Shown in pieces: positions 3,904 through 47,903 of a DNA stretch of 64,000 nucleotides. The translations under genes and the position numbers were made by a program. Below the pieces are notes generated by a model that was given only the letters and a program-made list of their open reading frames with translations, was not told where the DNA came from and made no database searches. The stretch lies in contig JAGHST010000016.1 in NCBI GenBank assembly GCA_018065695.1, positions 1 through 64,000 on the forward strand, given 5' to 3'. The stretch's first letter is position 1. Each line of letters begins with the position of its first letter. This stretch comes from Candidatus Cacconaster caballi. Lineage in GTDB: Bacteria > Bacteroidota > Bacteroidia > Bacteroidales > UBA932.

Positions 3904-3976
3904 TGCTCCCTCAGGGGCTCGAACCCTGGACCCCAACATTAAGAGTGTCGTGCTCTACCAACTGAGCTAAGGAAGC
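3904..3976 (-). tRNA. tRNA-Lys (CTT)
   Basis: Reverse complement GCTTCCTTAGCTCAGTTGGTAGAGCACGACACTCTTAATGTTG...GGTTCGAGCCC...AGGGAGCA folds as a cloverleaf; loop CTCTTAA gives anticodon CTT. Confidence 0.95.
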
Positions 3977-28757: not shown

Positions 28758-30296
28758 CTACTTGGCGAACGCCACGCTTCTTGTCTCGCGGATGACGGTG
28801 ATCTTCACCTGACCGGGATAGGTCATTTCATCCTGTATGCGTTTGGCGATATCCGTAGAAAGTTCTTCGCACTGGGCATCCGACACTTCTTCCGCGCCGA
28901 CTATCACTCGTAGTTCGCGGCCTGCCTGAATTGCATAGGTCTTTGTCACTCCTGGATGAGAGAGTGCGATGCCTTCCATATCCTTCAATCTCTTGATATA
29001 GGACTCAATAACCTCACGGCGGGCACCAGGGCGGGCTCCCGAGATGGCGTCTGCCACAAGTACGAGCGGCGCTATGAGAGACTGCATTTCAATCTCTTCG
29101 TGGTGAGCTCCGATGGCGTTGCAGATATCAGGCTTTTCCTTGTACTGTTCAGCCACCTTCATACCGAGCATAGCATGAGGAAGTTCAGGATCCTCCTCAC
29201 ATACCTTGCCGATATCGTGGAGAAGGCCGGCCCTTCTGGCAACTTTGGCATTGAGGCCAAGTTCTGAAGCCATTGTAGCGCAAATATTTGCAACTTCACG
29301 GGAATGCTGCAGAAGATTCTGTCCGTACGAACTGCGATATTTCATACGGCCTATCAAACGCACCAGTTCCACGTGAAGACCGTGAATGCCAAGGTCAATG
29401 CAGGTGCGCTTGCCTGTTTCCATAATTTCGTCATCGAGTTGCTTCTTAACCTTGTCAACCACTTCCTCTATGCGGGCCGGGTGGATACGTCCGTCCGTTA
29501 CAAGTTGATGGAGTGCAAGTCTTGCAACCTCCCTGCGAACCGGGTCAAAAGACGAGAGCAGGATTGCTTCCGGAGTATCGTCCACAACGATTTCAACGCC
29601 TGTGGCAGCCTCAAGAGCACGAATGTTGCGGCCTTCTCGTCCGATGATTCTGCCCTTGACCTCATCGTTGTCGATATTGAAAACCGTAACAGCATTTTCT
29701 ATCGCAGCTTCAGGAGCCGTACGCTGTATTGTATTGATGACAATCCGCTTGGCCTCCTTGCTTGCAGTCAGCCTCGCTTCATCCATAACGTCATTGATAT
29801 ATGACATCGCCTGAGTCTTCGCTTCAGCCTTCATTGACTCGACGAGCTGGTTCTTGGCATCTATGGCGGAAATGCCGGCAATCTCCTCAAGTTTCTCGAT
29901 GGCCTGATTGCGCAGCTTGTCATATTCGTCGCTCTTCTTGTTGACTATGTCGAGCTGAAGTTTGAGATTCTCCCTTATTGTGTCAGCCTCCTTCTGCTTG
30001 CGGCCCAGTTCCGAATTCTGCTGATTGAGCACAAGTTCTCTTTGCTTCAGTTTGTTTTCGGTCTGTTGTGCCTGCGCGTTCCTTTCATTGATATATGCTT
30101 CGTGTTCGCTCTTCAACTGAAGGAATTTCTCTTTCGCCTGAAAGATTTTCTCTTTTTTGATTGCCTCTCCCTCGTTTTGAGCAGCTTCTATGAATGCTTT
30201 CCTCTTGTTTTTCAGAATGACATTGGTGGTCAGCATACAGGTCAGAAAACCAGCTACAAGAGCAATGATTGCTGTAATGATGATTGTTGTAATCAT
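28758..30296 (-). CDS. rny: Ribonuclease Y
   Basis: N-terminal TM plus coiled coil; KH domain ([31 protein letters not shown]); HD domain ([11 protein letters not shown]). Confidence 0.97.
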
Positions 30297-30349
30297 AGTG
30301 TATATATATTTTGTTTAACGTGCTACACTATAATTTGCAATTGAAAGAA

Positions 30350-30537
30350 AAAAGCCGTTAGCAAGGTCTGTTCGAAAATCTTAATTGATAAGATTTGAGC
30401 TCCGGAATAACGTCGCGGACTTCCAACGTCCGATGTATCGAATCCCCCGAAGGGTAACCCAGGCCTGTCTTTGACTTCCGAGTCGGCTCGTTTTGGTTTT
30501 TTAGTGTTGATTTTGGCATAGAGCTTCCTAACGGCTG
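30350..30537 (-). ncRNA. ssrS: 6S RNA (ssrS)
   Basis: Located between zapA and rny. Long imperfect hairpin closed by AGCCGTTAG/CTAACGGCT with a following T-run; ~187 nt. Confidence 0.8.
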
Positions 30538-30818
30538 CTGAGATATTCTCCAAGTTCCGCATCCAAGTCTGCAATATTTTTGCGGATATTGTCGATTTCC
30601 TTTGCACCGGCAGCTTCAAGGTCCACAAGTTTTTTTTCCTCATTCAGCAGCACCACCCGCAATATCTCCGACAGCTCCACCTCTCGATAGTCATACTGCA
30701 ACGCTTCTATCTCCGCATTGATTCTTGCAACTGCTGCGCGAATGAACTCCTCCTTCTCCGCCTCTATCTCAAGCGGGAAGTTCCTTTCGGCTATCTTCAC
30801 TGTAATGTTCTGCATCAT
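30528..30818 (-). CDS. zapA: Cell division protein ZapA
   Basis: MMQNITVKIAERNFPLEIEAEKEEFIRAAVARINAEIE, 96 aa. Confidence 0.88.
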   Translation of the reverse strand: MMQNITVKIAERNFPLEIEAEKEEFIRAAVARINAEIEALQYDYREVELSEILRVVLLNEEKKLVDLEAAGAKEIDNIRKNIADLDAELGEYLSSR

Positions 30819-31122: not shown

Positions 31123-31130
31123 CAAAGTTA
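31123..31130 (-). promoter_or_regulatory. Bacteroidota-type -7 box (TAACTTTG) for the coiled-coil/zapA unit
   Basis: TAACTTTG on the minus strand, 19 bp upstream of the start codon. Confidence 0.5.
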
Positions 31131-42284: not shown

Positions 42285-44251
42285 TGTAAATCTATAGTTG
42301 TTTTTATATTCACATTTATGCCGGCCTGTGGGAAGAATCCTTCATTCACACCATCCGACCATGCATCCGCGATATATTTTCTGTTCAGTAAATTATTCAC
42401 AAATATAGCAAACTTTACCTTTTTCAGAGAATATTCCGCCCTCACGTTCCAAACGTCGTATGCAGGAAGCTGTTTCTCAGCCGATTGAGTATTGTCATAA
42501 TATTGACTCCCGACATATTTCCAAGAGAAATCGGCCGAAAAAGCACCGGTAGGGGCAAACGTAGCACTCACCATCCCCACGGCACCTGGCGAAAGAGTCA
42601 TATGCAGACCATTATCCTCGATGCGGTTTACGCTGAATGATGCATTGGCATCCAGCCTCAGCCACCGGGCCGCTTTCAACGCGAAAGTCAGTTCCACTCC
42701 CCTTCTGTGGCTGCGTGGCACATTCTCTCTTATTCTGTAGCCGTCTGCGGAGAGTCTGCCGTTCTCGAGAAGTTGGTCCCTATACTCCATCAGATATAAG
42801 TTTGCTCCTGCCGAAAACCTCTCAGTAGAGCGTTTCCACCCCAGTTCAAAATCATAAAGACGCTCACGCCCGACAGTTTTCCCGTCCCCGGCATCGATTG
42901 CGGCAATGATGTCGGCACGGTTCGGCTCCTTATTGCCGACAGATGCGGCAAAGCAGATTTGCCCGACCTTGCCCAGTTCGAGAGTGAGGCCTAACTTCGG
43001 GTTGAAGAAAATATAATTGTGCCGCGATGTGATATCCACGAGGCAATCATCCCTGCCGGATAGAGAGTAATCGATGCCACGCAGTTGCACTTCGCCGTAC
43101 AATGATGCCGGTCCGAAGCTGAACTCTCCCCGCACGAATGCGGACAACTCCCTTTTCAAAGCATCGCTCCGGCATATTTGGGGAAAAATCTCCCCCAAAG
43201 GGCCACGGTTGTAATTATGATGTTCCCCATCATAGAGAGAGCCGGATACATTGGCGACAATAAATGCAGCCGGACTTCTCCAAGTAATATTGGACAGTAC
43301 GGCCCAGTAGTTGTTGCTCTCCGCCTGACAAAGTTCGGTTTGCGGTCCGTCGGACGATAGAAAAGTGTTGTAATATCCTCCTCCCCTCGTGTAGTTCAGA
43401 GTAGTGGTCCAGAACAGGCCGGATTCAAACTGATGGATATAGATTCCCTGAAAATGGTTCTGGGCATAATTGTCGCTGTCGCCCTTGTGGGCAGGGTTGT
43501 AGCGGCGGTCTTTTTCCAACATTCCGGGAGGACAGCCAAGCCAGGTGATACCGCTTCTCTGTGCTCCAAGTATATAATTGAATTTAACAGCATTGTTACC
43601 TTTCATCCATCCTCCGGATGCAAAGGTTGAAAGCGCTCTTACAAAGCCATTGTCGATATAGCCTTCCGTAGAGCCGCAAAACAGGCCTCCGTCCATCGAG
43701 AATCCGTTTTCAAGCCTTCCGCTGCCCAGGGCTGCACTGACGGTTCCTGTCAGGAAAGAGCCGCCGGAAAATTCCGCTCTTGCATACTTGCGTCCCGGCA
43801 AACGGGTCTGCATATTGACGCTTGCACCGAAGGCCCCCGGTCCGCTTGAAGAAGTGCCTACACCTCTCTGCAGCTGGACTGACTCAAGAAAGCCTGATAT
43901 GGCCGGTATATTCACCCAGAACACCTGCTGACTCTCAGCGTCGTTGAGTGTCACGCCGTTGAGAGTCACATTGGTTCTGGTTGCATCACTTCCCCTCACC
44001 CTCATCACACTGTTGCCCAAACCGGTGCCGCCCTCATACAGAACAACGGTGGACGGTTGCAGAGAGAGAGCGGCGGGCAGGGAAATGTCTGCACCGAGTT
44101 CTTCCAGATACTCACGGTCCAGTATGTCTGCGGCCACAGGAGTTTTGTCGTCTGCCCTGAAAGCGGAGATTACTGTGCTGTCTATCTTCTCTTGCGCCGA
44201 CAGCGTAGCGCAAAGCAGCGTCAGAGACGCCGTGAACACTGTTTTTTTCAT
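42266..44251 (-). CDS. TonB-dependent receptor (predicted thiamine uptake)
   Basis: Plug domain (SVMRVRGSDATRTNVTLNGVTLNDAESQQVFWVNIP), C-terminal beta barrel; directly after a TPP riboswitch. Confidence 0.92.
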   Translation of the reverse strand: MKKTVFTASLTLLCATLSAQEKIDSTVISAFRADDKTPVAADILDREYLEELGADISLPAALSLQPSTVVLYEGGTGLGNSVMRVRGSDATRTNVTLNGVTLNDAESQQVFWVNIPAISGFLESVQLQRGVGTSSSGPGAFGASVNMQTRLPGRKYARAEFSGGSFLTGTVSAALGSGRLENGFSMDGGLFCGSTEGYIDNGFVRALSTFASGGWMKGNNAVKFNYILGAQRSGITWLGCPPGMLEKDRRYNPAHKGDSDNYAQNHFQGIYIHQFESGLFWTTTLNYTRGGGYYNTFLSSDGPQTELCQAESNNYWAVLSNITWRSPAAFIVANVSGSLYDGEHHNYNRGPLGEIFPQICRSDALKRELSAFVRGEFSFGPASLYGEVQLRGIDYSLSGRDDCLVDITSRHNYIFFNPKLGLTLELGKVGQICFAASVGNKEPNRADIIAAIDAGDGKTVGRERLYDFELGWKRSTERFSAGANLYLMEYRDQLLENGRLSADGYRIRENVPRSHRRGVELTFALKAARWLRLDANASFSVNRIEDNGLHMTLSPGAVGMVSATFAPTGAFSADFSWKYVGSQYYDNTQSAEKQLPAYDVWNVRAEYSLKKVKFAIFVNNLLNRKYIADAWSDGVNEGFFPQAGINVNIKTTIDLQWISTD

Positions 44252-44253
44252 TT

Positions 44254-44320
44254 CCTTACGCAGGTTCTAACCTGATCAAGTTGGAGGGTATTATCTCAGC
44301 CCGCAAAGAGGGGCACCCCG
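44254..44320 (-). promoter_or_regulatory. TPP riboswitch
   Basis: Minus strand GGGGTGCCCC...GCGGGCTGAGATAATACCC...AACTTGATCAGGTTAGAACCTGCGTAAGGAA matches the thi-box core. Confidence 0.95.
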
Positions 44321-44325
44321 AAAAA

Positions 44326-45096
44326 TCATTTCAATGTTATCTTGTAAAGGCGCGGCCAGTTCTTGCCGGTAAGGTAAATCGAGCCGCTCTTTTCATCGTA
44401 TGCTATGCCGTTGAGCACATCCGTGTCGCGTCTGTACAGTTCGCGCGGCAGAAGGCCGGTGCAATTTACAACGGAACTGACCTTGCCGCTTTGGGGATCT
44501 ATTCTGAGAATCAAGTCGCTGGTATAGACATTGGCCCAGATCTCCCCCCTGATATACTCAAGTTCGTTTATATAATTGACCTTCTTTCCATTGAGAGTGA
44601 CGCTAATGGATTTCTGCTCGGCAAAGGTCTCAGGATCCCGGAAACGGATAGTGGATGTTCCATCGCTCATCATCAGACTTCTGCCGTCCGTAGTGATTCC
44701 CCACCCTTCTCCCTCGTAGCGGGTTTCGCCAATTTTTTCAAAAGAATCGGCATCATACACGAAGCAGGTGTTCTCCCGCCAGGAAAGAATGTAGATGCGA
44801 TTCTTGTACACACAGGACCCTTCTATGAAATACTTCTTTGGAAAATTGATGCGCTCCATCACCTTTCCGGTGGCTAGATCCACTTTTCTAAGACTCGACT
44901 CACCGTACTGTCCTGCAGTCTCATAGAGCTGCCCCTTATAGAAGAAGAGGCCCTGCGTATATGAGGAAACGTCGTGTTTGAAACTCTTTTCCGCATTGCA
45001 GGTCCAGGTCCTTACTTTCTTTTTCTGAGAATATGCATTGCAGGACAAAAGCGACAATACTGCCGCCAGCAGCACTATGTGGGAGACTTTCGTCAA
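44326..45096 (-). CDS. Glutaminyl-peptide cyclotransferase (glutamine cyclotransferase)
   Basis: Lipoprotein-like signal (LLSCNAYS); YTQGLFFYKGQLYETAGQYGESSLRKVDL; YINELEYIRGEIWANVY. Confidence 0.92.
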   Translation of the reverse strand: MTKVSHIVLLAAVLSLLSCNAYSQKKKVRTWTCNAEKSFKHDVSSYTQGLFFYKGQLYETAGQYGESSLRKVDLATGKVMERINFPKKYFIEGSCVYKNRIYILSWRENTCFVYDADSFEKIGETRYEGEGWGITTDGRSLMMSDGTSTIRFRDPETFAEQKSISVTLNGKKVNYINELEYIRGEIWANVYTSDLILRIDPQSGKVSSVVNCTGLLPRELYRRDTDVLNGIAYDEKSGSIYLTGKNWPRLYKITLK

Positions 45097-46590: not shown

Positions 46591-46663
46591 AGCCACTTGG
46601 GAGACTCGAACTCCCGACCTGCTCTTTACGAGGGAGCTGCTCTACCAGCTGAGCTAAAGTGGC
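46591..46663 (-). tRNA. tRNA-Thr (CGT)
   Basis: GCCACTTTAGCTCAGCTGGTAGAGCAGCTCCCTCGTAAAGAGCAGGTCGGGAGTTCGAGTCTCCCAAGTGGC; loop CTCGTAA. Confidence 0.95.
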
Positions 46664-47552: not shown

Positions 47553-47565
47553 AGTCATAAAAAAA

Positions 47566-47903
47566 AGGCGGACTTGTAAGCCGAATTCTGTACCCTTGCG
47601 GGCTTCTGTCATTTATCTGATGCAGCCTACCCCCCGACAAAGGACGAGCAACCCTTGACTGTCGGTATATTTGGCCTTGCAGCCCTCCGGTGTGTACCGC
47701 CACGGCGTCACCGCCGCAGCCCGTGAGCTCTTGCCTCACGTTTTCACCCTTGCCGGCAAAGGAACGGGTCCGCTCCCGCCGGCGGTTGTTTTCTGTTACA
47801 CCAACCATAAGCTTACGCCCATCTGTGCTTTCCACAGGGAGGTGCTCTTTGCTGTCCGGACTTTCCTCACCGCAACCGGCGCGACAGAACAGTCCACCTT
47901 CAA
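47566..47903 (-). ncRNA. rnpB: RNase P RNA (bacterial type A)
   Basis: Minus strand GAAGGTGGACTGTTCTG...GAGGAAAGTCCGGAC ... ACAGAATTCGGCTTACAAGTCCGCC, then a T8 run. Confidence 0.97.

Follow-up and report, generated by a model that had tools for sequence, protein, structure and literature searches.

A 64,000-nucleotide stretch of the genome of a gut bacterium in the order Bacteroidales (the window) carries an RNA of a known kind, a 6S RNA, in a new genomic arrangement, in which the RNA directly follows the cell division gene zapA and its closing stem contains the zapA stop codon. The biogenetic arrangement is probably new as well. 6S RNA shuts down the transcription machinery, and its gene is commonly regarded as an independent one that happens to lie near zapA. 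Comparison of the locus with its relatives suggests that it is here probably the last part of a zapB-zapA-6S unit, transcribed from a sigma-A promoter upstream of zapB and released by processing. The original prediction, made from the sequence of this locus, is confirmed in what it observed, while its interpretation is partly supported by comparative sequence evidence.

Genomic context and features of the locus

On the minus strand of the window, a 5'-nucleotidase-like gene, a zapB-like gene, zapA, the 6S RNA and rny follow one another in this order (Table 1). The 93-residue product encoded upstream of zapA is called zapB-like on the basis of gene position and predicted coiled coil. The 5' strand of the closing stem, AGCCGTTAG, consists of the last two sense codons of zapA (Ser AGC, Arg CGT) and its stop codon TAG; it is fully complementary to CTAACGGCT, after which TTTTTT follows, exactly the pairing that had been claimed from the sequence. 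The separation of the two strands had been put at 175 nt, close to the values found here (~166 nt between the strands, 184 nt from the first to the last paired base). The claim that the 6S RNA is embedded in zapA is thus borne out for the closing stem. Elsewhere on the minus strand of the window lie an RNase P RNA of class A (47561–47900), a TPP riboswitch (44236–44330) and two tRNAs (3904–3976 and 46591–46663), all of ordinary type.

Table 1. Features of the zapB-zapA-6S-rny region, in window coordinates.
Feature	Position	Strand	Basis
6S RNA, Bacteroidales type	30346..30536	-	full-length match to covariance model R1, 191.8 bits; span is that of the model match
Closing stem, 5' strand, AGCCGTTAG	30528..30536	-	sequence, covariation, fixed synonymous codons
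Closing stem, 3' strand, CTAACGGCT	30353..30361	-	sequence, covariation
T-run (6 Ts) directly 3' of closing stem	30347..30352	-	sequence
zapA, cell division protein ZapA, 96 aa	30528..30818	-	Pfam PF05164, E=3.7e-8, above cut-off
zapB-like coiled-coil gene, 93 aa	30823..31104	-	PF06005 (ZapB), E=2.7e-4, below cut-off
Sigma-A -7 element TAACTTTG before zapB	31123..31130	-	exact TAnnTTTG; candidate promoter
rny, RNase Y, 3' of the 6S RNA	28758..30296	-	RNase_Y_N (3e-30), KH and HD domains

Identity of the RNA

At curated gathering scores, Rfam returned no match at the window locus. A permissive scan with RF01693 (Bacteroidales-1, '6S-Bacteroidales') aligned the model over its full length (1–179) to 30347–30536 on the correct strand, with 21.3 bits and E=0.17 in a 451-nt search, below the gathering score of 60 bits. 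The RF01693 seed alignment does not include the family of the window genome. A search at the DNA level recovered the locus from 34 of the genus's 37 genomes, one of them that of the window, and these 34 loci were used to build a covariance model, R1, which therefore has the window genome among its sources. R1 matches 172 of 200 genomes of the family, in 24 of its 26 genera, and also matches all three family genomes in which a search with RF01693 gave nothing even at E<=0.001. It recovers Bacteroides-type loci that score above the RF01693 cut-off at identical coordinates (for example G077, L031, L035 and L052), together with 19 of 20 6S-Flavo (RF01685) loci at E<1e-4; judged by these matches, R1 is a bridge between two Rfam 6S families, RF01693 and RF01685. 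Its reverse-strand matches (18–25 bits) reflect the self-complementarity of the hairpin, and plasmid records gave no match to the RNA. Homology thus makes the assignment of the window RNA as a 6S homologue of the Bacteroidales/Flavobacteria type secure. The 6S reading holds through R1 homology to established 6S loci, though Rfam misses the RNA at its curated cut-off; the Infernal check suggested with the original prediction accordingly came out divided, with RF01693 below its cut-off on one side and a weak full-length match plus family-wide R1 matches on the other.

The architecture is that of 6S RNAs generally, which are 180–200 nt long and form a long irregular hairpin with a closing stem, a large single-stranded centre and an apical stem: the RNA has 191 nt, a closing helix (alignment columns 1–18/185–201), an unpaired 5' arm of ~30 nt and apical helices (52–153). 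A perfect 9-nt complement within 228 nt 3' of the stop codon arose in 0.05% of mononucleotide shuffles. The folding energy of the window RNA is by itself unimpressive (z = -1.6; 12 of 200 shuffles fold as well), and because it is weak evidence alone, the proof of the RNA is comparative. Closing-stem pairing is kept in all 34 same-genus loci, with one mismatch in one of them, and both strands change, so that the covariation which the original prediction had called for is found. Among these 34 sequences, 13 of 49 pairs, including 5 of the closing stem, vary on both sides, and standard pairs fill 98.4% of pair cells, compared with 29–47% when the partner strand is slid. Rows in which the automatic search had assigned a wrong 3' partner (6 of 52) were left out. 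It is hardly credible that the RNA is something other than 6S, namely a zapBA operon terminator combined with a chance long-range stem: the absence of Rfam matches here at curated thresholds and a folding energy only mildly better than that of shuffles would fit such a reading, but full-length homology across 172 of the 200 family genomes and to recognised 6S loci from two orders, together with covariation along the entire RNA, does not. The cross-family matches already contradict it.

Linkage to zapA and comparison with known 6S systems

The 6S RNA directly follows zapA in 34/34 loci of the genus and in 31/31 further family loci from other genera; this linkage, a supporting feature of 6S identity, was thus present in every genus and family locus checked. 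In other Bacteroidales families, 12 of 15 weak RF01693 loci also directly follow zapA, and such linkage is found widely across the phylum. In Bacteroides, Phocaeicola and Draconibacterium the zapA-rny gap is ~70–115 nt, too short to contain a 6S gene.

We take the 6S RNA of Bacteroides thetaiotaomicron to be RF01693. It has been detected together with pRNAs (PMC7366714), and a 6S RNA has likewise been detected in Flavobacterium psychrophilum (PMC9723704). RF01693 RNAs share length and architecture with the window RNA, which their model matches in full. The genes scoring above the RF01693 cut-off are not adjacent to zapA and most have a -7 element just upstream, whereas the window type is linked to zapA, lacks a recognisable nearby promoter and scores below the Rfam cut-off. 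The 6S-Flavo RNAs (RF01685) resemble the window type more closely, lying directly 3' of zapA in 20/20 loci with a promoter element ahead of zapB and only background levels close to the 6S RNA; they differ in that the zapA stop codon stands ~25–30 nt before the stem and in that the spacer holds a conserved, boxA-like GTTC[AT]TT, absent from the window genus (0/34). This motif occurs in the zapA-6S spacer of 20/20 flavobacterial loci (L086–L105; control windows, 0–2) and in 6 of 11 other linked Bacteroidales loci, and in some of these genomes similar strings precede 16S rRNA by 100–136 nt. The motif may serve 6S RNA as an antitermination site like that of rRNA, one that the window genus has lost. 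GCTCTTTG in the 6S 5' arm was also considered as a boxA but dropped, as half of this string is paired in the closing helix.

In Escherichia coli, 6S RNA has kept its zapA linkage and has its own promoters, P1 and P2. The order there is zapA-ssrS-fau, so that ssrS follows zapA as in the window, but fau rather than rny lies downstream and the stop codon is not in the closing stem (E. coli K-12: zapA stop at 3055941, ssrS start at 3055983, gap of 41 nt). Synteny of zapA and 6S RNA has been reported in beta- and gamma-proteobacteria (PMC7641849, PMC9788540). Our literature search, which was not exhaustive, found no report of this synteny in Bacteroidota, part of which may be known, nor any of a linked 6S RNA lacking a promoter or of a closing stem that includes a stop codon. 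The linkage as such is known in Proteobacteria; what looks new is that the promoter is apparently missing and that the stop codon overlaps the RNA.

A stop codon within the closing stem

The zapA TAG occupies stem positions 7–9 in 32 of the 34 genus loci, where ZapA ends ...YL(x)(S/G)R-stop. In two of these (L028 and L029) TAG is retained with two G-U wobble pairs. The stop codon is lost in the remaining two genus members: L016 carries TCAG, whose partner strand CTGGC has changed with it so that the stem is preserved, and L022 carries CCAG and a single mismatch. The ZapA frame of both extends for another 10 codons and closes within the 6S 5' arm, which supplies the tails QPCSLPKSTL and QSRSMPKSTF, respectively. 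At stem position 7, 32 of 34 loci have T on the 5' side, whereas the opposite base is divided between A (26 loci) and G (8), a pattern expected of a 5' strand that also serves translation. Wherever Ser and Arg occupy the two in-stem columns, their codons are always AGC and CGT (100% fixed), whereas six-fold sites just upstream of the stem use several codons (0.35–0.89 fixed). The RNA-level constraint therefore starts at the first base of the stem, and synonymous constraint in zapA is confined to the two in-stem codons.

The window overlap is one end of a continuum, since the position of the zapA stop codon in other family loci ranges from -45 to +9, counted in nt before (-) and inside (+) the stem. 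Among 67 rny-anchored loci drawn from named records, 42 overlap, with main registers +9 (AGCCGTTAG) and +2 (..TAGCCG). The +9 state needs six changes on the RNase Y tree, at least four of them forced by well-supported branches; the overlap is thus recurrent and labile, with several origins or losses. Compaction is the preferred reading, a conserved stem having provided a stop codon time and again. Repeated gain and loss, together with the two read-through relatives, argue against a finely tuned device, and lability on the tree makes it less likely that the stop-codon overlap as such has a conserved role in regulation.

Promoter elements and termination

The sigma-A -7 element of Bacteroidota is TAnnTTTG (PMC7366714, PMC9723704). 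It is present upstream of zapB, in a conserved place 555–690 nt before the 6S RNA, in 147 of 149 distinct zapA-linked loci. Within 40 nt upstream of the 6S RNA itself it occurs in 3 of these 149 loci, which equals background, and in 0 of the 34 genus loci. The unlinked 6S genes, in contrast, have it within 40 nt in 24 of 30 cases and within 60 nt in 26 of 30 (2.2 expected). Comparison of the linked loci with shuffled sequences gave the same division, with background counts near the 6S RNA and a large excess in the zapB zone. Exact motifs, five-of-six matches and a 52-nt promoter matrix all gave background levels at the 3' end of zapA, where matrix scores were no higher than in coding control windows; a promoter of atypical sequence, or one for another sigma factor, would escape these searches. 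A string resembling TAYCTTAG before the stem does not qualify as a -7 element, since it would place the transcription start within the stem and varies at its synonymous positions. A TAnnTTTG just upstream, the mark of a free-standing sRNA gene, is thus not a feature of the linked 6S RNAs.

The original prediction had offered two origins for the RNA, processing from a zapA transcript or a promoter inside zapA. The conserved zapB promoter accords with the former, and the latter finds no support in the sequence. The zapBA genes need a promoter of their own regardless, and its presence before zapB proves nothing alone; processing from a zapBA transcript is favoured because the zapA 3' end has neither a sigma-A-like element nor synonymous constraint.

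Downstream, a run of at least four Ts follows the closing stem in 149/149 distinct linked loci, and no other helix borders on this run. The 6S closing stem and the T-run probably act together as an intrinsic terminator. Between the 6S RNA and rny, TAnnTTTG does not exceed background (6 of 149 linked loci), and rny may therefore depend on read-through of the 6S terminator. A hairpin, TTGTAAGTAT...ATATTTACAA (30297–30340, minus strand), lies between the T-run and rny and ends at the rny start codon; it occurs in many genus members with apparent compensatory changes, and could control RNase Y expression.

Biogenesis of the 6S RNA

A zapB-zapA-6S transcript from which the 6S RNA is cut out would be the simplest account of these patterns, and we consider such co-transcription probable. 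The sigma-A promoter upstream of zapB would drive the unit, and RNA polymerase would pass from zapA directly into the 6S RNA because there is no room between them for a terminator or promoter; where the two overlap no terminator fits, which implies that the zapBA transcript must contain the 6S RNA. Transcription would mostly stop at the T-run, with the closing stem doubling as terminator stem, and some read-through may supply rny. We infer that an endonuclease acting near the base of the closing stem frees the mature RNA which, by homology, would bind the housekeeping RNA polymerase by mimicking a promoter. As the closing stem holds the zapA stop codon, a cut at its base would leave the zapA mRNA without a stop, and each transcript molecule would then give either full-length ZapA or 6S RNA, not both. 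In its strictest form, this account would have zapA-linked Bacteroidota make a promoterless 6S RNA solely by cleavage of zapBA mRNA, each 6S RNA with an in-stem stop destroying one zapA message (a non-stop mRNA), which we regard as unlikely. If true, it would tie a global inhibitor of RNA polymerase to the expression of a cell-division gene molecule for molecule.

Two other readings bear on the same evidence. The 6S RNA might have its own promoter, of unrecognised sequence, in the 3' coding region of zapA, in which case ZapA translation and 6S RNA would use separate transcripts and the overlap would be plain compaction. E. coli provides a precedent with 6S promoters in and just after zapA, unlinked Bacteroidales 6S genes have their own promoter, an abundant 6S RNA would seem to require a strong one, and ribosomes running 10 codons into the 6S arm, as predicted for two genus members, would be more easily tolerated on a separate transcript. 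We nevertheless hold this reading to be somewhat unlikely given the scarcity of TAnnTTTG within 40 nt of linked compared with unlinked 6S genes (3/149 vs 24/30), matrix scores no higher than those of coding control windows, synonymous sites that vary freely directly upstream of the stem, and a zapA-6S spacing that ranges from -45 to +9 nt without any fixed element.

The original prediction had further proposed that translation termination competes with folding of the stem, a competition which is possible from geometry and is weakened by the lability of the overlap. Developed into a regulatory switch, it would have a ribosome at the zapA stop block the stem, delay 6S folding and weaken termination, so that polymerase enters rny. 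A ribosome at TAG would indeed cover the entire 5' strand of the stem, no other helix is available to the T-run, and the 6S-rny region lacks TAnnTTTG beyond background (6/149). Polymerase, however, needs ~180 nt more past the stop codon, by which time the ribosome has probably gone; overlap registers differ, the overlap is gained and lost, and relatives without the stop exist, all of which makes a switch quite improbable. Release of the 6S RNA from a zapB-zapA-6S transcript is the account we retain, with processing at the stem base and the consequent loss of the zapA stop as its inferred parts.

Implications

Bacteroidota would, on present sequence evidence, be a phylum in which 6S RNA is a processed piece of a cell-division operon in most lineages examined. 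Lineages whose 6S RNA lies outside the zapA operon carry a 6S promoter of their own, which provides a natural before-and-after, and the old question of why 6S RNA follows zapA in distant phyla becomes testable. The overlap is a compact case of a single sequence under constraint from both protein termination and RNA structure. Annotation at the Rfam cut-off would miss a whole family of Bacteroidales 6S RNAs, whose scores lie below it.
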